Assembly: GCA_021817125.1 (NCBI GenBank) | Contig: JAKAWC010000008.1 | Span: forward strand, 1 to 37,031 | Length of the DNA stretch: 37,031 nucleotides | DNA from: Microcaldota archaeon | Lineage (GTDB): Archaea; Micrarchaeota; Micrarchaeia; Micrarchaeales; CABMGC01 | Direction: 5' to 3' | Shown: positions 6,099 through 14,994 of the stretch, one piece after another | Layout: every line of letters begins with the position of its first letter | Numbering within the stretch: position 1 is the first letter of the stretch | Notes under the pieces: model-generated | Told to the model about the DNA's origin: nothing | Seen by the model: only the letters and a program-made list of their open reading frames with translations | Databases searched by the model: none | Program-made: the position numbers and the translations under genes

Positions 6099-6111
6099 AA
6101 TGCGAGCGCCG
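6099..6111 (+). repeat. Distal attachment-site copy (orphan tRNA-Gly 3' fragment)
   Basis: AATGCGAGCGCCG is identical to 13999-14011. Eleven of the thirteen bases equal the last eleven positions of tRNA-Gly(UCC) (complement). Similarity to the tRNA stops at 6112, which defines the edge of the crossover segment. Confidence 0.85.
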
Positions 6112-6223
6112 ATATTAGCCATTAAGTGGCGGTTCGCAAACGATATTATTTAATATACTTTAATATACCTCCTTTCGAACCATGGGCTATTTGTCTATGT
6201 TTTGAGCGTATGGGAGTATCATA

Positions 6224-6439
6224 TTATAGTGTGAATTCTGTCTTCTCTTTAGTGAAACGCGCTTTAGCGTTCTGTGTTGCATCGTCGATTGCAGAGAAAA
6301 TTTTATTTACATCTGCCAGAGTATACGCATAAGTGCCCTTGTTTGCACAGTTGCCTAACCTTCTCAAATCTTCTAATATACGCTTCGTCCGGCGAGCTGC
6401 GATCCGCTTAAACCGCTCCTCTTTCGACTCCTTCTCCAT
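6224..6439 (-). CDS. Small conserved-looking basic protein, 71 aa
   Basis: Starts at ATG 6439 with a good Shine-Dalgarno sequence (GGTGAT, 5 nt before the ATG). The sequence KEERFKRIAARRTKRILEDL, then LGNCANKGTYAYTLADVNKI and ATQNAKARF reads as a compact helical protein. From memory it resembles short proteins common on Gram-positive bacterial mobile elements (the ERF..AA.RR...L..L..LGNC.N pattern); I could not verify this by search. It is the first gene inside the distal element end, transcribed outward towards DUF218. The opposite-strand frame over it is a shadow. Confidence 0.75.
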   Translation of the reverse strand: MEKESKEERFKRIAARRTKRILEDLRRLGNCANKGTYAYTLADVNKIFSAIDDATQNAKARFTKEKTEFTL

Positions 6440-6510
6440 AGAATCACCAGTTTAACATAGAAAACATATCTTTAAAAGGACATCTATAAATTCCTACAAT
6501 AAGCGTAAAG

Positions 6511-6519
6511 TTTATATAG
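6511..6519 (+). promoter_or_regulatory. TATA-like box for the 51-aa membrane protein gene
   Basis: TTTATATAG about 40 nt before ATG 6555, in an AT-rich divergent spacer (6440-6554) that must also drive the minus-strand 71-aa gene (candidate CTTTTAAAG near 6475). GGTGAG 4 nt before ATG 6555 serves as ribosome binding site. Confidence 0.5.
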
Positions 6520-6554
6520 TTATTTATCACAATCCTACATATATTGGTGAGAAA

Positions 6555-6710
6555 ATGGTTCTACCTTTGAAACTCGGAGCAGGCACGGGTCCTGCAGCAT
6601 TGATTGTGGGAGGCGTGGTCTTCGTGGCATATCTGCAGAATCCAATAGGATGGGTATTGATAGGGCTTGGCATCGCTCTTAGCCTACTCTGGAAGCTTAA
6701 ATTCAGCTGA
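6555..6710 (+). CDS. Miniature two-helix membrane protein, 51 aa
   Basis: ATG 6555 has a ribosome binding site (GGTGAGAAA) and a TATA-like box upstream. The product starts MVLPLKLGAGTGPAALIVGG, continues VVFVAYLQ, then NPIGWVLIGLGIALSLLW and ends KLKFS, giving two hydrophobic segments (about residues 13-27 and 32-46) joined by a Gln-Asn-Pro turn. No family is recognised. Stop is 10 bp before the next ATG, so it forms an operon with the DUF457-like gene. The size and hairpin topology resemble pilin-like subunits, virion membrane proteins or holin-like peptides; none is established. Confidence 0.65.
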   Translation: MVLPLKLGAGTGPAALIVGGVVFVAYLQNPIGWVLIGLGIALSLLWKLKFS

Positions 6711-6720
6711 TGGTGTTAAA

Positions 6721-7077
6721 ATGCCAAATCAAGATACCCATTTATTGGCTGGAGCAATATCAGGTGGCTGTGGCTACATAGGAGCCAGATTAGTACAAAA
6801 TGAAAAGATAAATCCCGGAAGTTTGATTATTTCGATTCTTGGAGGCGCGGTAGCTGGGGAATTGCCCGATCTCTTAGAGCCGGCAACAAATCCAAATCAT
6901 AGGGCATTAGGACATAGTTTTGCTACCGGAGGGACAATAATTTATGGCGTTGCAGAACTCTTCAAGTCTTTTGATGTCGACAATGATAAAAAAGCAATAG
7001 GAGTAGGTTTAGCATGTGGGTATTTAAGCCATCTTCTCCTTGACGGTCAAACGCCGAAGGGTTTGCCATTCATTTAA
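6721..7077 (+). CDS. DUF457/YdjM-like predicted membrane-bound metal-dependent hydrolase, short form
   Basis: 118 residues from ATG 6721, with GGTG upstream; longer in-frame starts overlap the 51-aa gene. Family motifs are present: an N-terminal Thr-His (DTHLLAGAISGG), DLLEPATNPNHRALGHS with the conserved His-Arg and Gly-His-Ser, and GYLSHLLLDGQTPKGLPFI with Ser-His...Asp...Thr-Pro-x-Gly. Bacterial relatives are LexA-regulated inner-membrane proteins of unknown substrate; this copy is shorter and has fewer transmembrane segments. It is convergent with the ATPase gene and overlaps its 3' end by 8 bp. It may process or remodel membrane lipids for the element, which is speculative. Confidence 0.8.
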   Translation: MPNQDTHLLAGAISGGCGYIGARLVQNEKINPGSLIISILGGAVAGELPDLLEPATNPNHRALGHSFATGGTIIYGVAELFKSFDVDNDKKAIGVGLACGYLSHLLLDGQTPKGLPFI

Positions 7078-8872
7078 ATGAAATACTATCTTCAAACCGT
7101 GTAGTTACTACAGCAGGATTATCTATTGCTCTTCTGTAGTGCTCTAACTCTACTTCGCTAGGCACCACAATATAAGTTTTCTTTGTCGCGTTTGTTAATT
7201 TCCTTGCCAATTCACTAATATCATGTTTCAACCCTGTTTCTATCTCAATATCAAAATTCTTTGTCATTATATCGGGCTTGTCCTCCCCTGTCATTGCCAG
7301 CTCGTAGGTTATGCTCTGTGCTTCAAGCTTCTTCGTTACCTCTCTTTCCATGAACTTGTGCAATCCCGACATGGCAGGGTCTTTTCTGTAGTACAACATT
7401 ACCTCTATGTTTCCCAAAGGCAACATCTGCCTATCGACCTCACCGTCTTTCTGTAGCCTCTGCAATGCCTTGCTCACTATGAACTTCGCCTTTCCCAAAT
7501 CCATGCTTTCCTCTTCAATAAGCCGTTTGGCGAGCTTGTTTGGCCAGCTTGCCTCTTGATTGAGCATTTCCATTATCTTTTGGGTGTAATCCTGCACTTC
7601 CTCCGGTTGCGGCAACTCCACAGACACATCGGGCAACTCCGCTTTGATATAATTCGCCTTACAGTCGTTGAGCCTGCTTATCTCCGTCGTGTATATCGGT
7701 ATCGAGTTGCGGACATTGCACATCGCAACGTCCGTAAAATAGTGGTCCCTGAGCTCCACGGCCACGAAGGGCAGGAGCGCGTTTATCTCCTTAAGGGCCC
7801 GCAGGTCTCTCTCGCTCTTGGTGCTGAAAAGCAGCTGCATGGTGAATTGGTTCCTCACCTCAGGCTCAAGGTCGGAATAGTTCTGGGTGCCGCACCAGAG
7901 CGCGCCCTTCGACCGGATGAGCCTGGCGACCTCGCCGAAGATGGTCGCCTCTGACTTCAGTAGCCTGTGGGCCTCGTCTATGACCATGATGTGTTTCATG
8001 GGCTCCGGCGCGCTCGCCTCGATCTCGTGCCACTTCTGGCGCAGGTATAGCTCGGCGTAGAAGGACTTCGCGGCCTCGTTGAGCCCGGAGAAGTCAAGGA
8101 CGAAGCTCCCTGTCGCCGTGAGGCCGCTGGCGGAGCTAGGAAGCTCAAGGTCGGCGAGCTTTTGGAGAATGTAGGCGTAGGCGGAGCTGGTCACGCTGCC
8201 GGACTTCTCCTTAGCCATCTCGCCCTCGATGTTGGAGTGCAACGACCTCCACGAATTGCTCCGCTTTAAAATGCTCCGGAGAAGGTTCTGGACGGAAGCG
8301 GCGACGACGCCCTGCGAGGTTATGGGGTAGGTCACGAGGAACGCCTGCACGAAAGCCTCCCTATCCTGGAACGGGTTGCCGGCGTAGTCGGCGACGCGCA
8401 GTATGGGTATGCCGAGCTTTAGGTACTCGTCGCCCGCCTTGAATGAGAAGATGGTCTTGCTCGACTCCGGGAAGAGGTTTATCAGGTAGCGCATCAGCGT
8501 TGACTTGCCGGAGCCCGACCTTCCCGTTATGAACAGGTTCCGGTTGTTCCTGTCCCTTATGTACGCCTTGAAATCCATCCGCTTCCTGTAGACCTTGGCC
8601 ATCTCCGGCGAGTCCCGCGTCAGCGCGCCGGTTGAGGTATATCGGTTCGGCACATATGCGACCGAGTCCTGGTATACGCCTCCCTTTATGGGCCTGCGGC
8701 CCACTGCGAGCCAGAACAGGGCGTACAGCGCGACCAGAGCGAGCAGGGGCACGCTGAACGGGAGCAGGCGGAAGACGCCTGCGAGGTAGAGCGCGCCCCA
8801 CAGGACGCCGAGAAGGACGGCGTGCTCGACTACGGACAACCTCCTTCCTCTACTTATGGGGGATTTTTCCAT
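7070..8872 (-). CDS. Membrane-anchored FtsK/HerA-superfamily (conjugation-type) ATPase with winged-helix and nuclease-like tail
   Basis: 600 residues. Two N-terminal transmembrane helices (about 17-33 and 39-57) precede a RecA-like ATPase domain with Walker A GRSGSGKST (117-125), Walker B HIMVIDEAH (294-302) and a sensor-like LWCGTQN. Residues after about 400 look like a winged helix (LGKAKFIVSKALQRLQKDGE) followed by a restriction-nuclease-like fold (PDIMTKNFDIEIETG, then TYIVVPSEVE), with the ExE-T-G variant often seen in mobile-element proteins. The architecture suggests a DNA-pumping or coupling ATPase for transfer, packaging or partition. The gene lies 12 bp downstream of the 118-aa gene. 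Base composition changes near 7670: the ATPase half is GC-rich and the C-terminal half AT-rich, suggesting a fusion by recombination. Confidence 0.85.
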   Translation of the reverse strand: MEKSPISRGRRLSVVEHAVLLGVLWGALYLAGVFRLLPFSVPLLALVALYALFWLAVGRRPIKGGVYQDSVAYVPNRYTSTGALTRDSPEMAKVYRKRMDFKAYIRDRNNRNLFITGRSGSGKSTLMRYLINLFPESSKTIFSFKAGDEYLKLGIPILRVADYAGNPFQDREAFVQAFLVTYPITSQGVVAASVQNLLRSILKRSNSWRSLHSNIEGEMAKEKSGSVTSSAYAYILQKLADLELPSSASGLTATGSFVLDFSGLNEAAKSFYAELYLRQKWHEIEASAPEPMKHIMVIDEAHRLLKSEATIFGEVARLIRSKGALWCGTQNYSDLEPEVRNQFTMQLLFSTKSERDLRALKEINALLPFVAVELRDHYFTDVAMCNVRNSIPIYTTEISRLNDCKANYIKAELPDVSVELPQPEEVQDYTQKIMEMLNQEASWPNKLAKRLIEEESMDLGKAKFIVSKALQRLQKDGEVDRQMLPLGNIEVMLYYRKDPAMSGLHKFMEREVTKKLEAQSITYELAMTGEDKPDIMTKNFDIEIETGLKHDISELARKLTNATKKTYIVVPSEVELEHYRRAIDNPAVVTTRFEDSISFK

Positions 8873-8884
8873 CGGAACCGAGCT

Positions 8885-9241
8885 TTATTGCTGTTTTATG
8901 CTGTATTTCGTGTCAGCCTTTCCCTTGCCCACGCGGACTATCGTGAGTGCGCGCTCGCCCTTTGCGAGCGACTTCGCCAGCTCCCTGTAGAGCGGCGAGG
9001 TTTCCTTTACGGCGAGGTCATACTCGCCGCCGTGGAACTGCACCCTGAAGATGCGCTTTCCGCGCATGACGGCGTTCGTCCTGGGCGGCGCGTCCGCGAA
9101 ACGCACGGGCGTCTCGCCGACCTGCAATTTCAGGAACGGCTTGTAGTCGTTCCTGTCCCATGCCTGCTGTTGTTCCTGCTCCATTCTCTTGTTCTCCGAC
9201 TCCGCCCATTCCGCGAGGGTGGTCAGTTGTTGTTGTGTCAT
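8885..9241 (-). CDS. Possible OB-fold single-stranded-DNA-binding protein, 118 aa
   Basis: Starts at ATG 9241 and heads the operon that continues into the ATPase gene. A Gln-rich N-terminal helix (MTQQQLTTLAEW, then MEQEQQQAW) is followed by YKPFLKLQVGETPVRF, RIFRVQFHGGEYDLAV, LYRELAKSLAKGERALTIV and RVGKGKADTKYSI. The pattern of a core-strand opening on FLKL..GE..VRF and a closing G-KG..TKYS strand resembles phage and plasmid OB-type ssDNA-binding proteins, from memory only. The context beside a DNA-translocating ATPase supports a DNA-metabolism role. Confidence in coding is high, in function low. Confidence 0.6.
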   Translation of the reverse strand: MTQQQLTTLAEWAESENKRMEQEQQQAWDRNDYKPFLKLQVGETPVRFADAPPRTNAVMRGKRIFRVQFHGGEYDLAVKETSPLYRELAKSLAKGERALTIVRVGKGKADTKYSIKQQ

Positions 9242-9321
9242 GTTTGCACCTTAAATATTATTTTCTGCGTCTTTTTTCAGGAAAACACAGAGCCCCAAAC
9301 GTCGAAAGAGTTTAACTAACG

Positions 9322-9330
9322 TTTATATAT
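9322..9330 (+). promoter_or_regulatory. TATA-like box for the 53-aa membrane protein
   Basis: TTTATATAT centred 34 nt before ATG 9360, in a spacer divergent from the 118-aa gene. A transcript from here would run through the 53-aa ORF into the structured GC block. Confidence 0.55.
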
Positions 9331-9359
9331 CTTTAGCCATCATACTCATTGGGATTATA

Positions 9360-9521
9360 ATGATAAGTGCAAAGCTCATAATGGCCCTTCTAACTGCGAT
9401 ATTTATCTTAGCTTTCCTATTCCTTCCGATAAAAGACTTCGGTTCTAATCTTGGCCAGTTTGTTATTGGCGGTGTGGTAGTTTTAGGCATCTTGTGGGTC
9501 GTTGTTTTTAAGTGGTTATAG
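9360..9521 (+). CDS. Miniature two-helix membrane protein, 53 aa
   Basis: ATG 9360 opens a 53-codon frame: an N-terminal hydrophobic helix (LIMALLTAIFILAFLFLP, about residues 6-23), a short polar turn with KDFGSNLG, and a second helix (FVIGGVVVLGILWVVVF, about 34-50) ending KWL. A TATA-like box lies 34 nt upstream. It is the second protein of this type in the element, though the sequences are only loosely alike. The frame ends 30 bp before the structured block, so both could share a transcript. Function unknown; pilin-like or membrane-remodelling roles fit the context. Confidence 0.6.
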   Translation: MISAKLIMALLTAIFILAFLFLPIKDFGSNLGQFVIGGVVVLGILWVVVFKWL

Positions 9522-9551
9522 CCTGATTTCAGCCCCCTTTTCTTGATAAAA

Positions 9552-9843
9552 CTTCTTTTAGGCGAGCTGACCGGAGGGAACTCCTGGCTAAAAGAAGGTT
9601 TTGACGGGCGAGCCCCACGGTGCGCCCGAAGGGCGAGGTGGGGTGTCGCACACCCCACCGGCACCGTGCTGGGCGAGCAAGAGGGCACCGGTAGGCGGAG
9701 CGAAGCGAAGCCTAACTTTCCAACGGGAAAGTAGGGGTCCTCTTGCTCGCTTGCGAGCCCGTCATTCTTGGCTGACCTTCTTCCTAAGAAGGTCGGAGCG
9801 TAGGCCCAAGAGGGGGCGAGCGAAGCGAGGGGTGAATTGGGCC
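9552..9843. other. GC-rich multi-hairpin non-coding block (candidate structured RNA or replication origin)
   Basis: This 290-bp stretch has no credible ORF but is packed with perfect complementary segments: 9552-9561/9588-9597 (10 bp, with an inner GGAG-GGAA-CTCC hairpin), 9603-9609/9757-9763 (7 bp, closing a large domain), 9616-9623/9661-9668 (8 bp) enclosing GCCC-GAA-GGGC (9624-9634) and a 9-10 bp hairpin 9637-9645/9651-9659, 9673-9684/9739-9750 (12 bp) enclosing 9692-9696/9710-9714 and 9715-9721/9726-9732, 9774-9782/9786-9794 (9 bp, 3-nt loop), and 9803-9809/9837-9843 (7 bp). GCGAAGC, known as an exceptionally stable DNA mini-hairpin, occurs at 9700-9706 and 9820-9826. It is flanked by convergent genes in AT-rich DNA. 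A GNRA-type loop (GGAA) on the plus strand favours an RNA read from that strand; an origin or transfer-origin role is the alternative. Confidence 0.7.
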
Positions 9844-9852
9844 GAAGCGACA

Positions 9853-10059
9853 TTATCTAACCACCTTTAGGGTATGCTGATTCCCCAAGCCTTTGGCATG
9901 CCTCTCAAGCTCCTGTGCTATGCGCTCCTTGAAGAAGTCCACGCCGATCTTGAGCGTCGGGTCGGTTATGGCCTTGGGCTCTTTTATGAAGAAAGCTAGG
10001 GCCTCGGCCTGTGCCTCGCGCCTGGCTGCCCTCTTGTCCTCTTCAGTTTGAGCTTCCAT
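9853..10059 (-). CDS. Small charged protein downstream of the RHH regulator, 68 aa
   Basis: ATG 10059 is preferred because GAGGAG lies 10 nt upstream; an ATG at 10089 would extend it by ten residues. The product starts MEAQTEEDKRAARREAQAEA, continues LAFFIKEPKAITDPTLKIGV and ends with FFKERIAQELERHAKGLG. It is helical, rich in Ala, Glu and Arg, with no recognised domain. It overlaps the 3' end of the ribbon-helix-helix gene by 17 bp, so the pair is an operon resembling small antitoxin/partner or copy-control units. Nothing shows toxicity. Its 3' end abuts the structured GC block. Confidence 0.6.
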   Translation of the reverse strand: MEAQTEEDKRAARREAQAEALAFFIKEPKAITDPTLKIGVDFFKERIAQELERHAKGLGNQHTLKVVR

Positions 10060-10204
10060 CGCGCACCATCTCCTCTTTTCGATAATCATTGAGCACTTTT
10101 CGGACTAGAGTGGCCTTCTTGTAGCCCTGGCCGGCTTTCTGCGATAGCCAAGCCGAGAGCTCGTCGTTGAGATAAAGGAGCATGCGGTTGTGTAGCTTTT
10201 TCAA
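10043..10204 (-). CDS. Ribbon-helix-helix (CopG/Arc-type) DNA-binding protein, 53 aa, TTG start
   Basis: The frame has no ATG before residue 8; TTG 10204 is preceded by AAAGG 8 nt upstream and gives MKKLHNRMLLYLNDELSAWL, then SQKAGQGYKKATLVRKVLND. This is the RHH pattern: a short strand (RMLLYL), helix 1 (DELSAWLSQKA), turn Gly-Tyr, helix 2 (KATLVRKVLNDY). Such dimers repress plasmid or toxin-antitoxin operons, often their own. A TATA-like box (AAATATAAG, minus strand) is centred near 10237. It overlaps the downstream 68-aa gene. A diverged, truncated paralogue lies just upstream (10298-10435). Confidence 0.75.
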   Translation of the reverse strand: MKKLHNRMLLYLNDELSAWLSQKAGQGYKKATLVRKVLNDYRKEEMVRDGSSN

Positions 10205-10232
10205 GATAAAACCTTTTACTTAGCTACACGAA

Positions 10233-10241
10233 CTTATATTT
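10233..10241 (-). promoter_or_regulatory. TATA-like box for the RHH operon
   Basis: Minus-strand AAATATAAG centred 33 nt before the TTG start at 10204, with AAAGG as ribosome binding site in between. An AT-only stretch just upstream (10240-10258) could be part of an operator. Confidence 0.45.
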
Positions 10242-10297
10242 AGGTATATATTTAAAATGATAGGAATTAGTGGAAGTCTACGGGAGCGATGCGGAGC

Positions 10298-10435
10298 TCA
10301 GTAGCAGCACTTCAATATCTTTATATAGCCCCAGGCTGCTTTTACGCCGAGCCAGGTCGAGAGCTCGTCATTAAGGTAGATAAGTATGTGGTGTTCCAGT
10401 TTCCCCGAAGATATACCTTTTACTTTACTACTCAT
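10298..10435 (-). pseudogene. Truncated ribbon-helix-helix paralogue, 45 aa
   Basis: From ATG 10435: MSSKVKGISSGKLEHHILIY, then LNDELSTWLGVKAAWGYIK, closely matching the neighbouring RHH protein (RMLLYLNDELSAWLSQKAGQGYKK). After Gly-Tyr-Ile-Lys it runs into ILKCCY and a stop, so helix 2 (KATLVRKVLNDY in the intact copy) is missing. The nucleotide sequences are also alignable (AGAGCTCGTC is shared), so this is a tandem duplication in decay. It could still be expressed as a short dimerisation-competent fragment. An AT-rich TATA-like stretch precedes it in the spacer divergent from the nuclease gene. Confidence 0.6.
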
Positions 10436-10536
10436 ATTTATAGTAGAGTAAATATTTAAATGTTCCCAATTGGTGTGATGGTTTGTAAAATCGATGTCTT
10501 TATTTATGTTTCGATTCATTGACATTGCGTATTAGT

Positions 10537-11739
10537 ATGCCATTTCCAGGAGCCCATGTTTTTGTAGTTGATGCAGATAGTTATCCTGTCCATAGAGATA
10601 GGTTATTCTGCGGAATAAAAAACCCAAATAAAATCAGCGTTATGAAAAAGACAGGCACAAAAAGACCAAATACTTCTTATTATGGCTTAATAGCTGATTT
10701 AGTAACTTTGAGAATTGGAGACTATATTATCTTTTATCAAATGAGAAAGGAAGAATCGAAATTTGATAGGGGCTTTAGAGGCATATTCAAAGTTGTCAGC
10801 CAACCGTTTTTTGACGATTCTGATATTGATGGTTTATCGAGCTCTGTCGGCCCGCTCGGTTCTAACGGTAAAAAAGTTCTTGGAAAATGTCCTTTTTGTG
10901 GTACCAATTTATCTGAAAAAGCTGATGCCAACACAGGGGAAAAAGTATGTAGGGATTGCAAGAAACAGTTAGACTATCATATCTTACCAAACCGGGTTTT
11001 AATAGAGCCGGTTAAAGTTTTTGACGATCCTATAGACGATAATACCGCATATATAGATAGGAACTTCATAAAGGCCGACTTGCCAGTATTATGGACTATG
11101 CTATTTAGGAAAACTTCTGGCGAAGGCAGGGCGCGAAGTATAACCCACATTCTGCCAGAAGAGTTTAGAAAACTTCAGGTAATTTTTGAGACTAATTGCA
11201 GAGCCTCCACCAATAATCGCTTCCAAGCATATAAACCTTCCAAATCCCAACAAATAGTGATTCCACTTGACACAGACTCAAGCGGGGAACTGAAAGTAGA
11301 GGCATTTCTTGAAGCATGGATGATGGAGAATATTGACAAGAGCAAGCCGATCATTAAAGACATTATAGGAAATCCTGATGAATTGGAATATTTTGGTAAT
11401 AATGTACTTTATGGCATAGGTGGAGAAAAAGTAGACGTACTTTGCATCCATAAAACGGATAAAGTTAGGCACAGGGCTACAGTAATAGAGCTTAAGAAAG
11501 GTACGCTTACTGAGGCCAGTGTGAGGCAAATTGAGGATTATACAAAATGGATGGCACAGTTAGTATTTGGTGATGACTCTCAAACCTCAAAAAATAAGAT
11601 ACAGCCTGTTTTGGTTGGGTTTAATGCACCCACCAAAGTGATAAACCTGGCAAAGAAAAATGTAGCAGGAACAAAACCACCAATGATATTAGAGTATTCG
11701 GTTGGGGGTGGCACTATTAATTTTAAGCGTGTGCTCTAG
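10537..11739 (+). CDS. Probable restriction/modification-sensing endonuclease: EVE/PUA-like domain, zinc ribbon, PD-(D/E)XK nuclease
   Basis: 400 residues from ATG 10537 (TTG 10519 is an alternative). The N-terminus (GAHVFVVDADSYPVHRDRLF, ADLVTLRIGDYIIFYQMR, FRGIFKVVSQPFF) has the layout of an EVE/PUA-type domain, used elsewhere to read modified bases. It contains an inserted C4 zinc ribbon, CPFC...CRDC (Cys118, 121, 138, 141). The C-terminus has a PD-(D/E)XK core resembling EndoMS/NucS (DUF91): GGEKVDVL with Asp300, VIELKK with Glu318 and Lys320, and QIEDY (Gln331, Tyr335). It converges on, and overlaps by 17 bp, a DNA methyltransferase gene, so the pair reads as a restriction-modification system. 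AT-rich codon use suggests acquisition. Confidence 0.75.
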   Translation: MPFPGAHVFVVDADSYPVHRDRLFCGIKNPNKISVMKKTGTKRPNTSYYGLIADLVTLRIGDYIIFYQMRKEESKFDRGFRGIFKVVSQPFFDDSDIDGLSSSVGPLGSNGKKVLGKCPFCGTNLSEKADANTGEKVCRDCKKQLDYHILPNRVLIEPVKVFDDPIDDNTAYIDRNFIKADLPVLWTMLFRKTSGEGRARSITHILPEEFRKLQVIFETNCRASTNNRFQAYKPSKSQQIVIPLDTDSSGELKVEAFLEAWMMENIDKSKPIIKDIIGNPDELEYFGNNVLYGIGGEKVDVLCIHKTDKVRHRATVIELKKGTLTEASVRQIEDYTKWMAQLVFGDDSQTSKNKIQPVLVGFNAPTKVINLAKKNVAGTKPPMILEYSVGGGTINFKRVL

Positions 11740-12700
11740 AATTTCTTTCTAACTTTTCAACTAATTTTTGTCTATATCTTGGTGCACGATTAGCCTTATT
11801 TAACTCTGCTCCGTCAGGCTTATGGAATACAAGGATATAGGAATGGATATTCATGGCCTGGAAAGGCTTTTTGCCAAATGGTCTGAATCCTCCACTTCTA
11901 TAATAACGCCAAATGTATAAATCAAACAGAGTGAACCCTAGCTCTCGCATTATGTTTATCACATCAGAATGGACAGGTAAAATCTGCCTTGATGCACCTA
12001 CTCTATAATCAGCTACAAACACAACACAGTATTTATCTTTTTTTAATACTCTCCACATTTCACTGAATGATTTAGCTATTTCGTTTAGGAATTTACTGTA
12101 ATCTTCTATCGTACTTAGATCGTCGGGCAGGTCTGAATATTTTATCATGCTTGCATAGGGAATATCAGTCATAACTGCGTCTATGCTTTCGTTATTTAGA
12201 TTTAATTTCCTACTATCCTTTACTTCTGCAATGTGGGTTGTTTTGTAATACTCTGAGCCTGGAACTTTTAAGTTATCCAATATACTTTCTAATTTTTTAA
12301 CTTCCTTTTGTGCTTGTATCCTTTTAGCATCGTTTTTGTGTTTGAGGTCGCCGTTCCCCAATACTGTTTGAAAATCCTCTTGCAGGTCTGCGATTAATTC
12401 TTTGTAGGCATTAACCATTTCTTGAGGTCTGTCTAGTTGGTTTAGTTTTGTTTTGGTTAATTCTATTGCCTTTGAATTAATATCGTAATTAATTGAGTTC
12501 CGTCCTTGTAGTTTGGCTTCTACTGCAACTGTGCCTGATCCGGCAAAAGGATCTAAGATAGTATCGCCCTTGTTTGAAAACCTCTCAACAATATGTGAGA
12601 AAACAATAGGTCGTATCTTACTTGGATATTCACCAATTCCATGAACGCTGTAATTAGATTTACCTCCTCTTCCAAAATCCCATACAGATTTATAGCTCAT
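11723..12700 (-). CDS. N4/N6-type DNA methyltransferase
   Basis: 325 residues from ATG 12700. SAM-binding motif I DPFAGSGT (50-57) follows the typical lead-in EYPSKIRPIVFSHIVERF; the catalytic motif IV is TDIPYASM (179-182), a DIPY variant of DPPY. The motif I to IV order and the central spacer fit the N6_N4_Mtase family; base specificity (m4C or m6A) cannot be told. AT-rich. Its start lies 19 bp downstream of the integrase stop on the same strand, so integrase and methylase are probably cotranscribed. It overlaps the nuclease gene tail-to-tail and is the likely protective partner. Confidence 0.88.
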   Translation of the reverse strand: MSYKSVWDFGRGGKSNYSVHGIGEYPSKIRPIVFSHIVERFSNKGDTILDPFAGSGTVAVEAKLQGRNSINYDINSKAIELTKTKLNQLDRPQEMVNAYKELIADLQEDFQTVLGNGDLKHKNDAKRIQAQKEVKKLESILDNLKVPGSEYYKTTHIAEVKDSRKLNLNNESIDAVMTDIPYASMIKYSDLPDDLSTIEDYSKFLNEIAKSFSEMWRVLKKDKYCVVFVADYRVGASRQILPVHSDVINIMRELGFTLFDLYIWRYYRSGGFRPFGKKPFQAMNIHSYILVFHKPDGAELNKANRAPRYRQKLVEKLERNSRAHA

Positions 12701-12719
12701 GTTAACATCTTTTTTCCAA

Positions 12720-13925
12720 CTATTTAAACTTCTTTCCCTTCTTTCCCTGCATCAAAAGATACGCATGGACTATCTCCTCTATCGCATTCGGGTCCTTCAA
12801 GGCCTCTGCCACTGCTTCCTTCATATTGACTTCGTGTTTCTGCACCTGCATAGTAAAATCGATATCTAACGGGTTCCCGCATCTATTGCAGTATTGCGAC
12901 TCCACTGGATTTTGTAATTGGCACCTTTGGCATATCTTAGCTTTCAGCTTCGGTTCTGTTGTTATATTTTCCACCTTAATTCCGTTTGCAGTTTGCACCG
13001 CGTTGTCTATATCCCTTCCCGAAAGGTGCACATACACTGAGGCCATCCTGCTATCGCCGGTCCAACCGAAGAACGACTTTAGCTGCTGTTCCGTCAGTTT
13101 ATTGGCATAGTAAGACGCCCTTGAGTGCCTGAAATTGTGCGGGTTGCAACGCTTCTCGATACCCGCCTTAACGGCCGTGTCCTTTAGCATCTTCCTTGCT
13201 GCATTATACTGCAACTGTCGCTCCTTGCTCGTGGATGTCCCTATCTCGTACCAAAGGCAGCTCTCCGGCTTCGCCTTGCCTATGTCGTTCAGATACTTCG
13301 ATAGATAAGGCACACTAAACATTATCGGTATTTTCCTCATGCCTGTTTTCCCGTTTACAGTTATATGCGCAGGATTGCTCTTTAGGTCAACGTCTTTTAT
13401 CCTCATGCTCAGTAATTCCCCTACCCGGATTCCAGAGTCGAACAGCACCGCGATTATCGTCTTGTTCCTTATGTATTTCGTGTTCTCCATCATTGCTATT
13501 ATGTCGTCCTCAGTGAGTAAGTCTTCCGGCAACGTTCTTTTGCCTTTCCTGTTTGTGGTCTTAATCCACGCCACTTGTTTAGGGTATGCCAGGTCGTCAC
13601 CCAGAAGGTGCTTATAAAAAGCCTTTACCACCGCTCGTATGTCGCGCTTTGTTTCGGTTGATAGCGAGGATCCTTCTACCTTTGCCATCGCCCTCTCTAT
13701 ATCTGTTCTATCTGCCTTTGCGACGTTCACTCTCTCTAAACATCTGAAGAACCAGTCGAGGCAATATAGGTGCTTTATCAGTGTCTTTGGATCCACGCCA
13801 CGGGCGCGCATATAAGATAAGTGGTTGTCTATCGCTTCCTTGTTCGCCGGCGTTACGCTATCGTTAGATGTTACCTTTCCATATACAACGTCAATTCTTT
13901 TTGAGGTATTGTAGTAGTCTGGCAT
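12720..13925 (-). CDS. int: Tyrosine integrase with C-terminal zinc ribbon
   Basis: 401 residues. A SAM-like core-binding domain (about 25-110) precedes the catalytic domain with the full tyrosine-recombinase set: Arg167 (SGIRVGELL), Lys193 (NGKTGMRKIP), His263-x-x-Arg266 (PHNFRHSRAS), Trp288 (FFGWTG) and nucleophile Tyr298 (SVYVHLSGRD). A C4 zinc ribbon (Cys332, 335, 346, 349) and a helical tail follow. It is transcribed away from the adjacent tRNA-Gly, with its 5' end 76 bp from the tRNA. All catalytic residues are present, so it should be active, catalysing integration into and excision from the tRNA-Gly 3' end. The TATA-like box is 28 nt upstream. Confidence 0.95.
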   Translation of the reverse strand: MPDYYNTSKRIDVVYGKVTSNDSVTPANKEAIDNHLSYMRARGVDPKTLIKHLYCLDWFFRCLERVNVAKADRTDIERAMAKVEGSSLSTETKRDIRAVVKAFYKHLLGDDLAYPKQVAWIKTTNRKGKRTLPEDLLTEDDIIAMMENTKYIRNKTIIAVLFDSGIRVGELLSMRIKDVDLKSNPAHITVNGKTGMRKIPIMFSVPYLSKYLNDIGKAKPESCLWYEIGTSTSKERQLQYNAARKMLKDTAVKAGIEKRCNPHNFRHSRASYYANKLTEQQLKSFFGWTGDSRMASVYVHLSGRDIDNAVQTANGIKVENITTEPKLKAKICQRCQLQNPVESQYCNRCGNPLDIDFTMQVQKHEVNMKEAVAEALKDPNAIEEIVHAYLLMQGKKGKKFK

Positions 13926-13945
13926 ACGCTATTCTTATGAACCCA

Positions 13946-13962
13946 TATTTATTTAAAGCTTT
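13946..13962 (-). promoter_or_regulatory. int: TATA-like box for the integrase
   Basis: Minus-strand TTTAAATAAATATGG centred about 28 nt before ATG 13925, consistent with a leaderless integrase transcript. It lies between the gene and the tRNA att site, so excision would keep the promoter with the gene. Confidence 0.6.
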
Positions 13963-13968
13963 ATGTGG

Positions 13969-13979
13969 GGGATTTGAAC
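13969..13979 (+). repeat. Partial copy of the tRNA T-arm next to the integrase
   Basis: GGGATTTGAAC here is identical to 14011-14021 in the tRNA-Gly T-arm, 42 bp away in direct orientation. It may be a remnant of an earlier integration, or part of the integrase binding region. Confidence 0.5.
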
Positions 13980-13998
13980 TATTTTGCCAGAATAGTAG

Positions 13999-14011
13999 AA
14001 TGCGAGCGCCG
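13999..14011 (+). repeat. tRNA-proximal attachment-site copy
   Basis: AATGCGAGCGCCG spans the last 11 positions of tRNA-Gly(UCC) and two bases beyond; identical to 6099-6111. Because the crossover segment restores the tRNA 3' end, integration leaves the tRNA intact. Confidence 0.85.
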
Positions 14012-14073
14012 GGATTTGAACCCGGGCCTTCGCCTTGGAGGGGCGAAGTCCTACCAGGCTAGACTACGCTCGC
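14001..14073 (-). tRNA. tRNA-Gly(UCC), integration target
   Basis: 73 nt, folds as a complete cloverleaf: acceptor GCGAGCG/CGCTCGC with discriminator A73, D stem GTCT/GGAC, anticodon stem TCGCC/GGCGA, T arm with TTCAAAT. The anticodon loop reads CCTCCAA, placing UCC at 34-36 but a C at position 33 where U is almost universal. No CCA is encoded. Its D-arm and T-arm closely match the tRNA-Gly(GCC) upstream. It hosts the integrated element at its 3' end. Confidence 0.92.
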
Positions 14074-14114
14074 ATCGATGGAATATATTAATAGCCAAGG
14101 TCTAAAATGCCTTG

Positions 14115-14606
14115 CTACCTTCTCCTCTCTTCCCTCAGAGGGTCGTTGAGCATGGCTTCGATGTTCCCGAGAAAAGCGTCCAGCTCGATGAGCTGCCGCA
14201 GAAAGTGGTCGTCACTCCATGTCTGTAAGCTCGCCGCTGGTGCAGTACCCCTCGGGAAAGAATTCGCATAACTGCCGAATCTCTTCAGTTGTGTGCATAT
14301 ACCTGGCACCTTCTCCTCAACCCCTGCGCCGCCAGTCGCCAAGATATTGGCGATGCCGTTGTCGAAATCCCTGAGCGTCTTGGGCAACTTCAGAATATTG
14401 ATCCTGTCGGAGTAGCTTCTTCCAAGGAACTGCCCTGCCTCTGCGCCGAGCATGCGCCTTATCCTCATATCGTGCTGCGCCGGATGAAGTATCGTGTGTA
14501 TCTCAAGCCTCACGTCCTCCACGATGGCCCTTATCACATGGATATGAGCTTTCGCATGATTGAAGGCGCTCGTCGGCATACCATCGCCAGCCCGCATAGC
14601 ATTCAT
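14115..14606 (-). CDS. Unrecognised helical protein, 163 aa
   Basis: Start ATG 14606 is chosen because a TATA-like box lies 27 nt upstream; TTG 14612 would add two residues. The product is soluble and mostly helical (AFNHAKAHIHVIRAIVEDV, LPKTLRDFDNGIANILATG, FLRQLIELDAFLGNIEAML) and ends in a basic Glu/Arg tail. I recognise no domain. It lies between two tRNA-Gly genes on the same strand. An opposite-strand frame (14289-14669) is probably a shadow. Confidence 0.6.
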   Translation of the reverse strand: MNAMRAGDGMPTSAFNHAKAHIHVIRAIVEDVRLEIHTILHPAQHDMRIRRMLGAEAGQFLGRSYSDRINILKLPKTLRDFDNGIANILATGGAGVEEKVPGICTQLKRFGSYANSFPRGTAPAASLQTWSDDHFLRQLIELDAFLGNIEAMLNDPLREERRR

Positions 14607-14628
14607 GGTCAATCAACCGCTTTTGTGC

Positions 14629-14637
14629 TTTATATAC
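14629..14637 (-). promoter_or_regulatory. TATA-like box upstream of the 163-aa gene
   Basis: Minus-strand GTATATAAAG centred 27 nt before ATG 14606, the spacing of a leaderless archaeal transcript. Confidence 0.65.
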
Positions 14638-14921
14638 GTTCACTTGAGAAAGAGCAGAGGGGTCTTTAGCAGCAGCTACCCGTTACACGGTTCCCGCTGC
14701 AGCATGGCTTTACTAGACGGCCGTCTTTCACGAAGAAGTCTAGAAGGGGATTGTGCCTCCTCATTGCTGTCAACGGCTCTGGAACTGTTTTTGCTAGGGT
14801 GCGTTTCACGGCTTTCCTTTGCTCTCCCATAATACCGCAATTAGAAATGGCGGTTTTGCGATATTTCTGGCTTGCGCGAACTTGTCAGGTAACATCTATC
14901 TGCCTGCCTCATAAAAAGAAG
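14638..14921. other. Gene-free spacer with several hairpins between tRNA-Gly(GCC) and the 163-aa gene
   Basis: No convincing coding frame. There are complementary segments: GCAGC...GCTGC around 14669-14695, CTAGAC...GTCTAG around 14711-14742 with an inner TCTT/AAGA, and ACCGC...GCGGT (14834-14838/14850-14854) followed by TTT on the plus strand. This could be tRNA trailer plus a small non-coding RNA. I could not match it to RNase P, SRP or guide RNA consensus motifs. Confidence 0.35.
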
Positions 14922-14994
14922 TGCGACCGCCGGGATTTGAACCCGGGTTACTACCTTGGCAAGGTAATGTCCTACCAGGCTAGACTACGATCGC
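14922..14994 (-). tRNA. tRNA-Gly(GCC)
   Basis: 73 nt cloverleaf: acceptor GCGATCG/CGGTCGC with A73, D stem GTCT/GGAC, anticodon loop TTGCCAA giving GCC, T arm CGGG/TTCAAAT/CCCG. Position 33 is the normal U. No encoded CCA. Same strand as, and closely related to, tRNA-Gly(UCC) 0.9 kb away. Confidence 0.95.

Follow-up and report, generated by a model that had tools for sequence, protein, structure and literature searches.

Actinomycete ICEs (AICEs) combine a tRNA-targeting tyrosine integrase with one FtsK/HerA-class membrane translocase, a repeat-rich cis region and small membrane proteins, and they use a TraB-type transfer of double-stranded DNA by a single protein, with cis-acting clt repeats. 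The element described here, found at positions 6099-14011 of the window (i.e. the whole stretch of 37,031 nt that was analysed, from a Microcaldota archaeon), is like AICEs in its tRNA-targeting integrase, its single FtsK/HerA-class membrane translocase, its repeat-rich region and its small membrane proteins; compared by description, however, AICEs possess replication genes and an FtsK-type TraB, unlike the window element. A related set of parts is known from ICEth1, the TdtA element of Thermus thermophilus, which carries a XerC-family integrase, repeats identical to the 3' end of tRNA-Ile, a HerA-like ATPase, a restriction enzyme and a PF01555 methylase, forms an apparently non-replicative circle and donates DNA via the HerA-like ATPase (PMC5365140). 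A Xer-family integrase, repeats of a tRNA 3' end, a HerA/FtsK-type ATPase, a restriction enzyme and a PF01555 methyltransferase are thus common to both, whereas ICEth1 is 14.9 kb long, bacterial and has a separate NurA nuclease, and the window element has an ATPase with two transmembrane (TM) helices and C-terminal domains of its own, as well as a module of an RHH-like gene, a 78-aa gene and a palindromic region. As no NurA-like nuclease gene was recognised beside the ATPase gene, we do not claim membership in the ICEth1 type; the likeness would be one of parts list. The nearest catalogue is that of the thaumarchaeal integrated elements, most of which are cryptic; like the window element these have an integrase, direct repeats, in some cases restriction-modification (R-M) cargo, and a size mostly under 20 kb (PMC6563490). 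However, this cryptic class is without signature genes, whereas the Micrarchaeota elements have a recurring core module.

The element is delimited by a 13-bp sequence, AATGCGAGCGCCG, which occurs as an exact match at 13999-14011 (+), where it covers the 3' end of tRNA-Gly(UCC), and at 6099-6111 (+), where it represents the displaced tRNA 3' end. A search of the whole genome (893,314 bases) found only these two exact copies, other places carrying one mismatch; on the scale of chance, a given 12-mer is expected ~0.0015 times per 25 kb of one strand (25,000/4^12). The target gene, tRNA-Gly(UCC) at 14000-14074 (-), is left intact by the insertion and was called by ARAGORN (Rfam tRNA, 65.5 bits). 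Both the borders and the integration site of the original prediction, a 13-bp repeat overlapping the 3' end of this tRNA, are therefore upheld. Between the two copies lie 7.9 kb of DNA whose G+C content is a mosaic, from 36% to 61% in 1-kb windows. The segment 6099-14011 is almost certainly an integrated mobile element, and we assign it, as an intact copy, to a family of small integrative elements found in Micrarchaeota.

In four relatives of other genera, tRNA-Gly(UCC) is found 295-2667 bp from a CPSF-type (RNase-type) gene without element genes; in the window, 8.9 kb separates the two. In G010, an acylphosphatase gene stands between the two, ~10 bp from the tRNA gene (295 bp overall), and the distance is 876 bp in G022, 1578 bp in G003 and 2667 bp in G017. 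These genomes keep the pre-insertion gene order, as synteny across genera and not as a near-identical empty allele, and it is in this form that the empty site, for which a search had been proposed, was found. The DUF218 gene named in that proposal as the marker of an empty site was rejected, its position not being conserved in relatives, the same-genus genome included; in the latter, no tRNA is present within the 2.8 kb of contig beyond the acylphosphatase gene. In the same part of the window (14000-14994), ~0.85 kb separates tRNA-Gly(UCC) from tRNA-Gly(GCC), a pair that is kept in several genera with a spacing varying from about 0.04 to 3.3 kb.

The integrase gene (12720-13925, (-)) starts 75 bp from the tRNA-Gly 3' end and encodes an XerA/XerD-like tyrosine recombinase (PF00589, Phage_integrase, 2e-22) with a C-terminal CxxC...CxxC zinc ribbon. 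In an alignment with 21 relatives, R167, K193, R266 and Y298 are invariant and H263 is nearly so, in agreement with the earlier description of a catalytically complete integrase beside the tRNA copy of the repeat. The four zinc-ribbon cysteines are kept in all 21 relatives as well; the word 'zinc' is absent from PMC8371274, which reviews the tyrosine recombinases of archaea. Of 148 related genomes, 52 encode relatives of the integrase, and the nearest ones in the GTDB collection are almost all labelled Micrarchaeota, labels that confirm the suspected DPANN host and name its lineage.

The arrangement of integrase and tRNA is constant: the distance from the tRNA 3' end to the integrase start is 52-77 bp, with both genes in the same orientation, at 22 of 23 loci, where Gly, Val, Glu, Ala, Ser, Asn, Tyr, Asp, Pro and His tRNAs are the targets (intron-bearing tRNAs were detected with the intron option on). 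In the remaining locus, in G056, the integrase start lies ~73 bp beyond a displaced copy (11 nt) of the tRNA-Thr end, as expected of a tandem insertion; with this tRNA-Thr counted, 11 isotypes are targeted in total. In eight loci, the window included, the final 11-13 nt of the tRNA are found again at a distance of 5-17 kb, i.e. at 7.90 kb in the window, 11.06 kb in G044 (Tyr), 9.84 kb in G041 (Val), 8.81 kb in G070 (Ala), 8.99 kb in G111 (His), 17.4 kb in G082 (Glu), 5.26 and 6.89 kb in G096 (Glu) and 5.06 kb in G056 (Thr). The att core of this integrase family is thus only 11-13 nt, similarly short to the 13-14 bp of SNJ2-type haloarchaeal proviruses and shorter than the 40-50 bp usual for suicidal archaeal integrases (PMC8371274); SNJ2, however, is a virus, whereas no structural genes were recognised in the window element. 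Additional tRNA 3'-end copies are present in G096:C8 (L058 9243-16210) and G056:C27 (L070 4453-9650), and these suggest successive insertions at one tRNA gene in both genomes.

The gene at 7070-8872 (-) encodes a 600-aa HerA/TrwB-type DNA translocase with two N-terminal TM helices and a P-loop motor. Its AlphaFold model (mean pLDDT 68) places the motor with HerA (Foldseek 2e-8), TrwB (7e-6) and VirB4, and the two helices ahead of the motor are arranged as in coupling proteins. C-terminal to the motor follow a winged-helix-like segment and a D..ExE domain, in which D534 is nearly invariant and the ExE motif is present among close relatives; as Pfam gives no match for either part, we read the latter as a putative nuclease from its pattern only. 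The nearest homologue, in G044, is 63% identical, compared with 53% for a host gene in the same comparison of the window's own genome (G000) with G044, and this higher identity of the ATPase is consistent with horizontal movement. Relatives in G094, G108, G080 and G144 are encoded at a distance from such integrases; the ATPase thus also occurs outside these elements. At another locus (L046 2657-5966), an ATPase homologue has as neighbours two large proteins whose signal sequences resemble those of archaeal type IV pilins.

A HerA/FtsK-type ATPase might also package the DNA of a small provirus, with two-helix proteins of 51-53 aa as its coat, as in spindle-shaped or filamentous viruses. The element would fit this in size (7.9 kb), in its FtsK-HerA ATPase, part of which gives a weak phage terminase HMM match (8e-10), and in two miniature membrane proteins from the ORF list, candidate coat proteins, one of 51 aa with two hydrophobic stretches (6555-6710, (+)) and one of 53 aa with two hydrophobic helices (9360-9521, (+)); the second element of the same genome, described below, also carries a 53-aa two-helix membrane protein. 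However, neither small protein of the window element has a homologue among the fetched loci, no phage DNA match was obtained, and scans of viral contigs for the ATPase, the integrase and the palindrome pattern returned nothing close (integrase relatives there are at most 36% identical). The N-terminal TM helices of the ATPase and its best likeness to HerA/TrwB (Foldseek) also argue against packaging, and we consider a provirus unlikely; DNA transfer by a membrane-anchored translocase is the reading that we prefer.

In line with the original prediction, profile scans of the element revealed neither a capsid gene (no HMM match to a capsid family) nor a recognised replication initiator (Rep); equally, no relaxase match was obtained with Pfam, PHROG or NCBIfam among the element proteins scanned. 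The predicted cargo of R-M genes, a translocase-type ATPase and miniature membrane proteins is borne out by HMM matches and the ORF list. It comprises a putative restriction endonuclease (10519-11739, (+); PADLOC REase_II, 1e-13) that starts at either TTG 10519 or ATG 10537 and has an EVE-like N-terminus (3e-4) and a zinc-binding match (2e-3), both under Pfam cut-offs, with a D..ExK pattern, a nuclease motif seen by eye, at the C-terminus. An N6/N4 DNA methyltransferase (11723-12700, (-); PF01555, 1e-25; PADLOC type II MTase, 4e-34), a YdjM-type membrane protein (6667-7077, (+); PF04307, 2e-9) whose start is probably ATG 6721, and a 71-aa protein with a weak match to phrog_35258 (6224-6439, (-); 1e-3) are also encoded. 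A 118-aa protein (8885-9241, (-)) possibly has an OB-fold, with the predicted order beta-beta-beta-alpha-beta-beta (pLDDT 71); its assignment as an SSB by fold was rejected, since the best Foldseek match, plasmid SSB PrgE, is not significant (E 0.29). Of the RHH regulators predicted earlier, only part stands: the pattern is seen in a 53-aa putative DNA-binding protein (10043-10204, (-)), for which Pfam gives no RHH support, and what had been taken as the second one (10298-10525, (-); phmmer 1e-6 to the first) looks like a truncated duplicate. The 53-aa RHH-like protein has homologues in G044, G082, G121 and the second element of its own genome, and the overlapping gene for a 78-aa protein (9853-10089, (-)) has homologues in G044, G121, G082 and G111.

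Directly after the 78-aa gene, in the window as in G044 and G121, lies a ~330-bp multi-hairpin region (9522-9852, no strand assigned) that the original prediction had missed, a candidate origin, transfer locus or structured RNA. It folds far better than shuffled sequences on both strands (z -4.8 and -5.4), and its first part, as a 96-nt model built from sequences of eight of the ten strongly matching genomes plus one more, has strong matches in 10 Micrarchaeota genomes; RNA-model matches with E above 1e-9 were set aside, several being of tRNA length and one lying on a tRNA-Ser beside an integrase. Among relatives, blastn identity is 70-90%. In nine copies, 28 of 73 pairs have changed on both sides with pairing kept, and double-change cells number 55 against 18 expected, with none of 500 shuffles as strong, a figure that is not a probability, as the nine copies share descent. 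Sliding the pairing partners by 1-3 columns removes most of this signal. A 176-aa ORF (9323-9853) was rejected as a protein gene, because relatives keep the stems by paired changes and indels and not the reading frame, and an Rfam covariance-model search of 9522-9852 returned no family. Among about 640 cells there are 12 G-U pairs on the strand of the 78-aa gene and 8 A-C pairs (G-U on the other strand); so few wobbles, with no clear strand preference, favour selection on DNA hairpins, and a DNA hairpin or origin as the reading, with an RNA as the less likely one.

In G111, G077 and G073, too, the region has a 78-aa or RHH-like homologue as its neighbour, and in G096 there are two overlapping tandem copies inside the element, near a far att copy. 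Remnants lie downstream of tRNA-Val in G042 and G044, and the G044 remnant is part of a 3.3-kb stretch that a 12-nt tRNA copy terminates. The G111 copy is located beyond the bounded element, adjoins a truncated integrase-like fragment and apparently belongs to an old insertion that has decayed. Directly beyond the far att of this tRNA-His element (L271 8401-8844), an integrase-like N-terminal stretch is apparently fused to a 78-aa homologue, likely the remains of an earlier insertion. Neither the second element of the window's own genome nor the surroundings of the RHH-like/78-aa pair of G082 revealed the region, which is therefore not obligatory. Covarying palindromes beside an RHH-like regulator, with no other maintenance gene, would also suit an integrated plasmid with RNA- or ssDNA-primed replication via the hairpin region, in which the ATPase acts in partition or translocation. 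However, no Rep was recognised, and a free circular contig was not seen, nine small contigs being without terminal overlaps; such a plasmid seems to us rather improbable, and a Rep-less donated element is preferred.

The element's closest sister, in G044, measures 11.06 kb, is inserted at tRNA-Tyr, is delimited by an exact 12-nt repeat and contains an integrase, an NgoPII-type enzyme, a C5 methylase, Vsr, a 117-aa protein, the RHH-like and 78-aa homologues, the palindromic region and the ATPase. The window's own genome carries a second element, at tRNA-Val(UAC) (G000:C8 62772-~72000; L064 8773-~18000), which follows the same plan with ThaI and its methylase, an RHH-like gene and a 66-aa gene of marginal likeness to the 78-aa gene (equalled by 2 of 1000 shuffles), but with another HerA-class ATPase, of 719 aa and with two N-terminal TM helices; for the far att of this second element, no second copy within one mismatch was found in 25 kb. 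In these gene sets, the cargo changes and the core persists. That ATPase, OB-like protein and restriction genes act jointly against foreign DNA, as in HerA-containing or MADS systems, with mobility incidental, is the least probable of the alternatives, for although mad8 (9e-12) and mad2 (2e-13) match and ATPase homologues have R-M genes (G056, G084) or Vsr/Schlafen genes (G077) as neighbours, the window and G044 elements have unrelated R-M sets yet a constant ATPase module, the ATPase is membrane-anchored and set apart from the R-M genes, and HerA superfamily kinship alone can give the mad8 match. The new family that had been held possible is supported, as the integrase plan recurs across the order and the core module is present in at least one other delimited element. 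In the literature covered, which left most subscription papers and preprints outside, no description of such elements in Micrarchaeota was found, and the family is widespread and apparently undescribed.

On balance, we think it fairly likely, by analogy, that this is a minimal, Rep-less integrative element working by ICEth1-like DNA donation. The integrase would recombine the two 13-bp copies and so excise a circle. Lacking a recognised Rep, this circle may not replicate at all, or it may have its origin in the hairpin region. That region may serve as a cis-acting origin or transfer site to which the RHH-like and 78-aa proteins may bind; the ATPase would pump the DNA out, and in the recipient it would re-integrate into the same tRNA gene. 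R-M would stabilise the element and may help transfer. A bolder proposal, which we put forward tentatively and hold to be doubtful as a whole, is that the hairpin region and the RHH-like/78-aa pair form a new class of cis-acting DNA locus, a replication or transfer origin acting via folded single strands, and that the element is a self-transmissible archaeal conjugative element, Rep-less and relaxase-less, with one membrane HerA-type translocase.

For DPANN archaea, descriptions of mobile elements are poor, and how DNA is exchanged among such tiny, host-dependent cells is an open question. The family delimited here offers integrases at many tRNA genes, a candidate DNA pump, a candidate cis-acting origin with strong covariation, and R-M systems that differ between elements. 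With it, excision, transfer and origin function can be tested directly in Micrarchaeota co-cultures.
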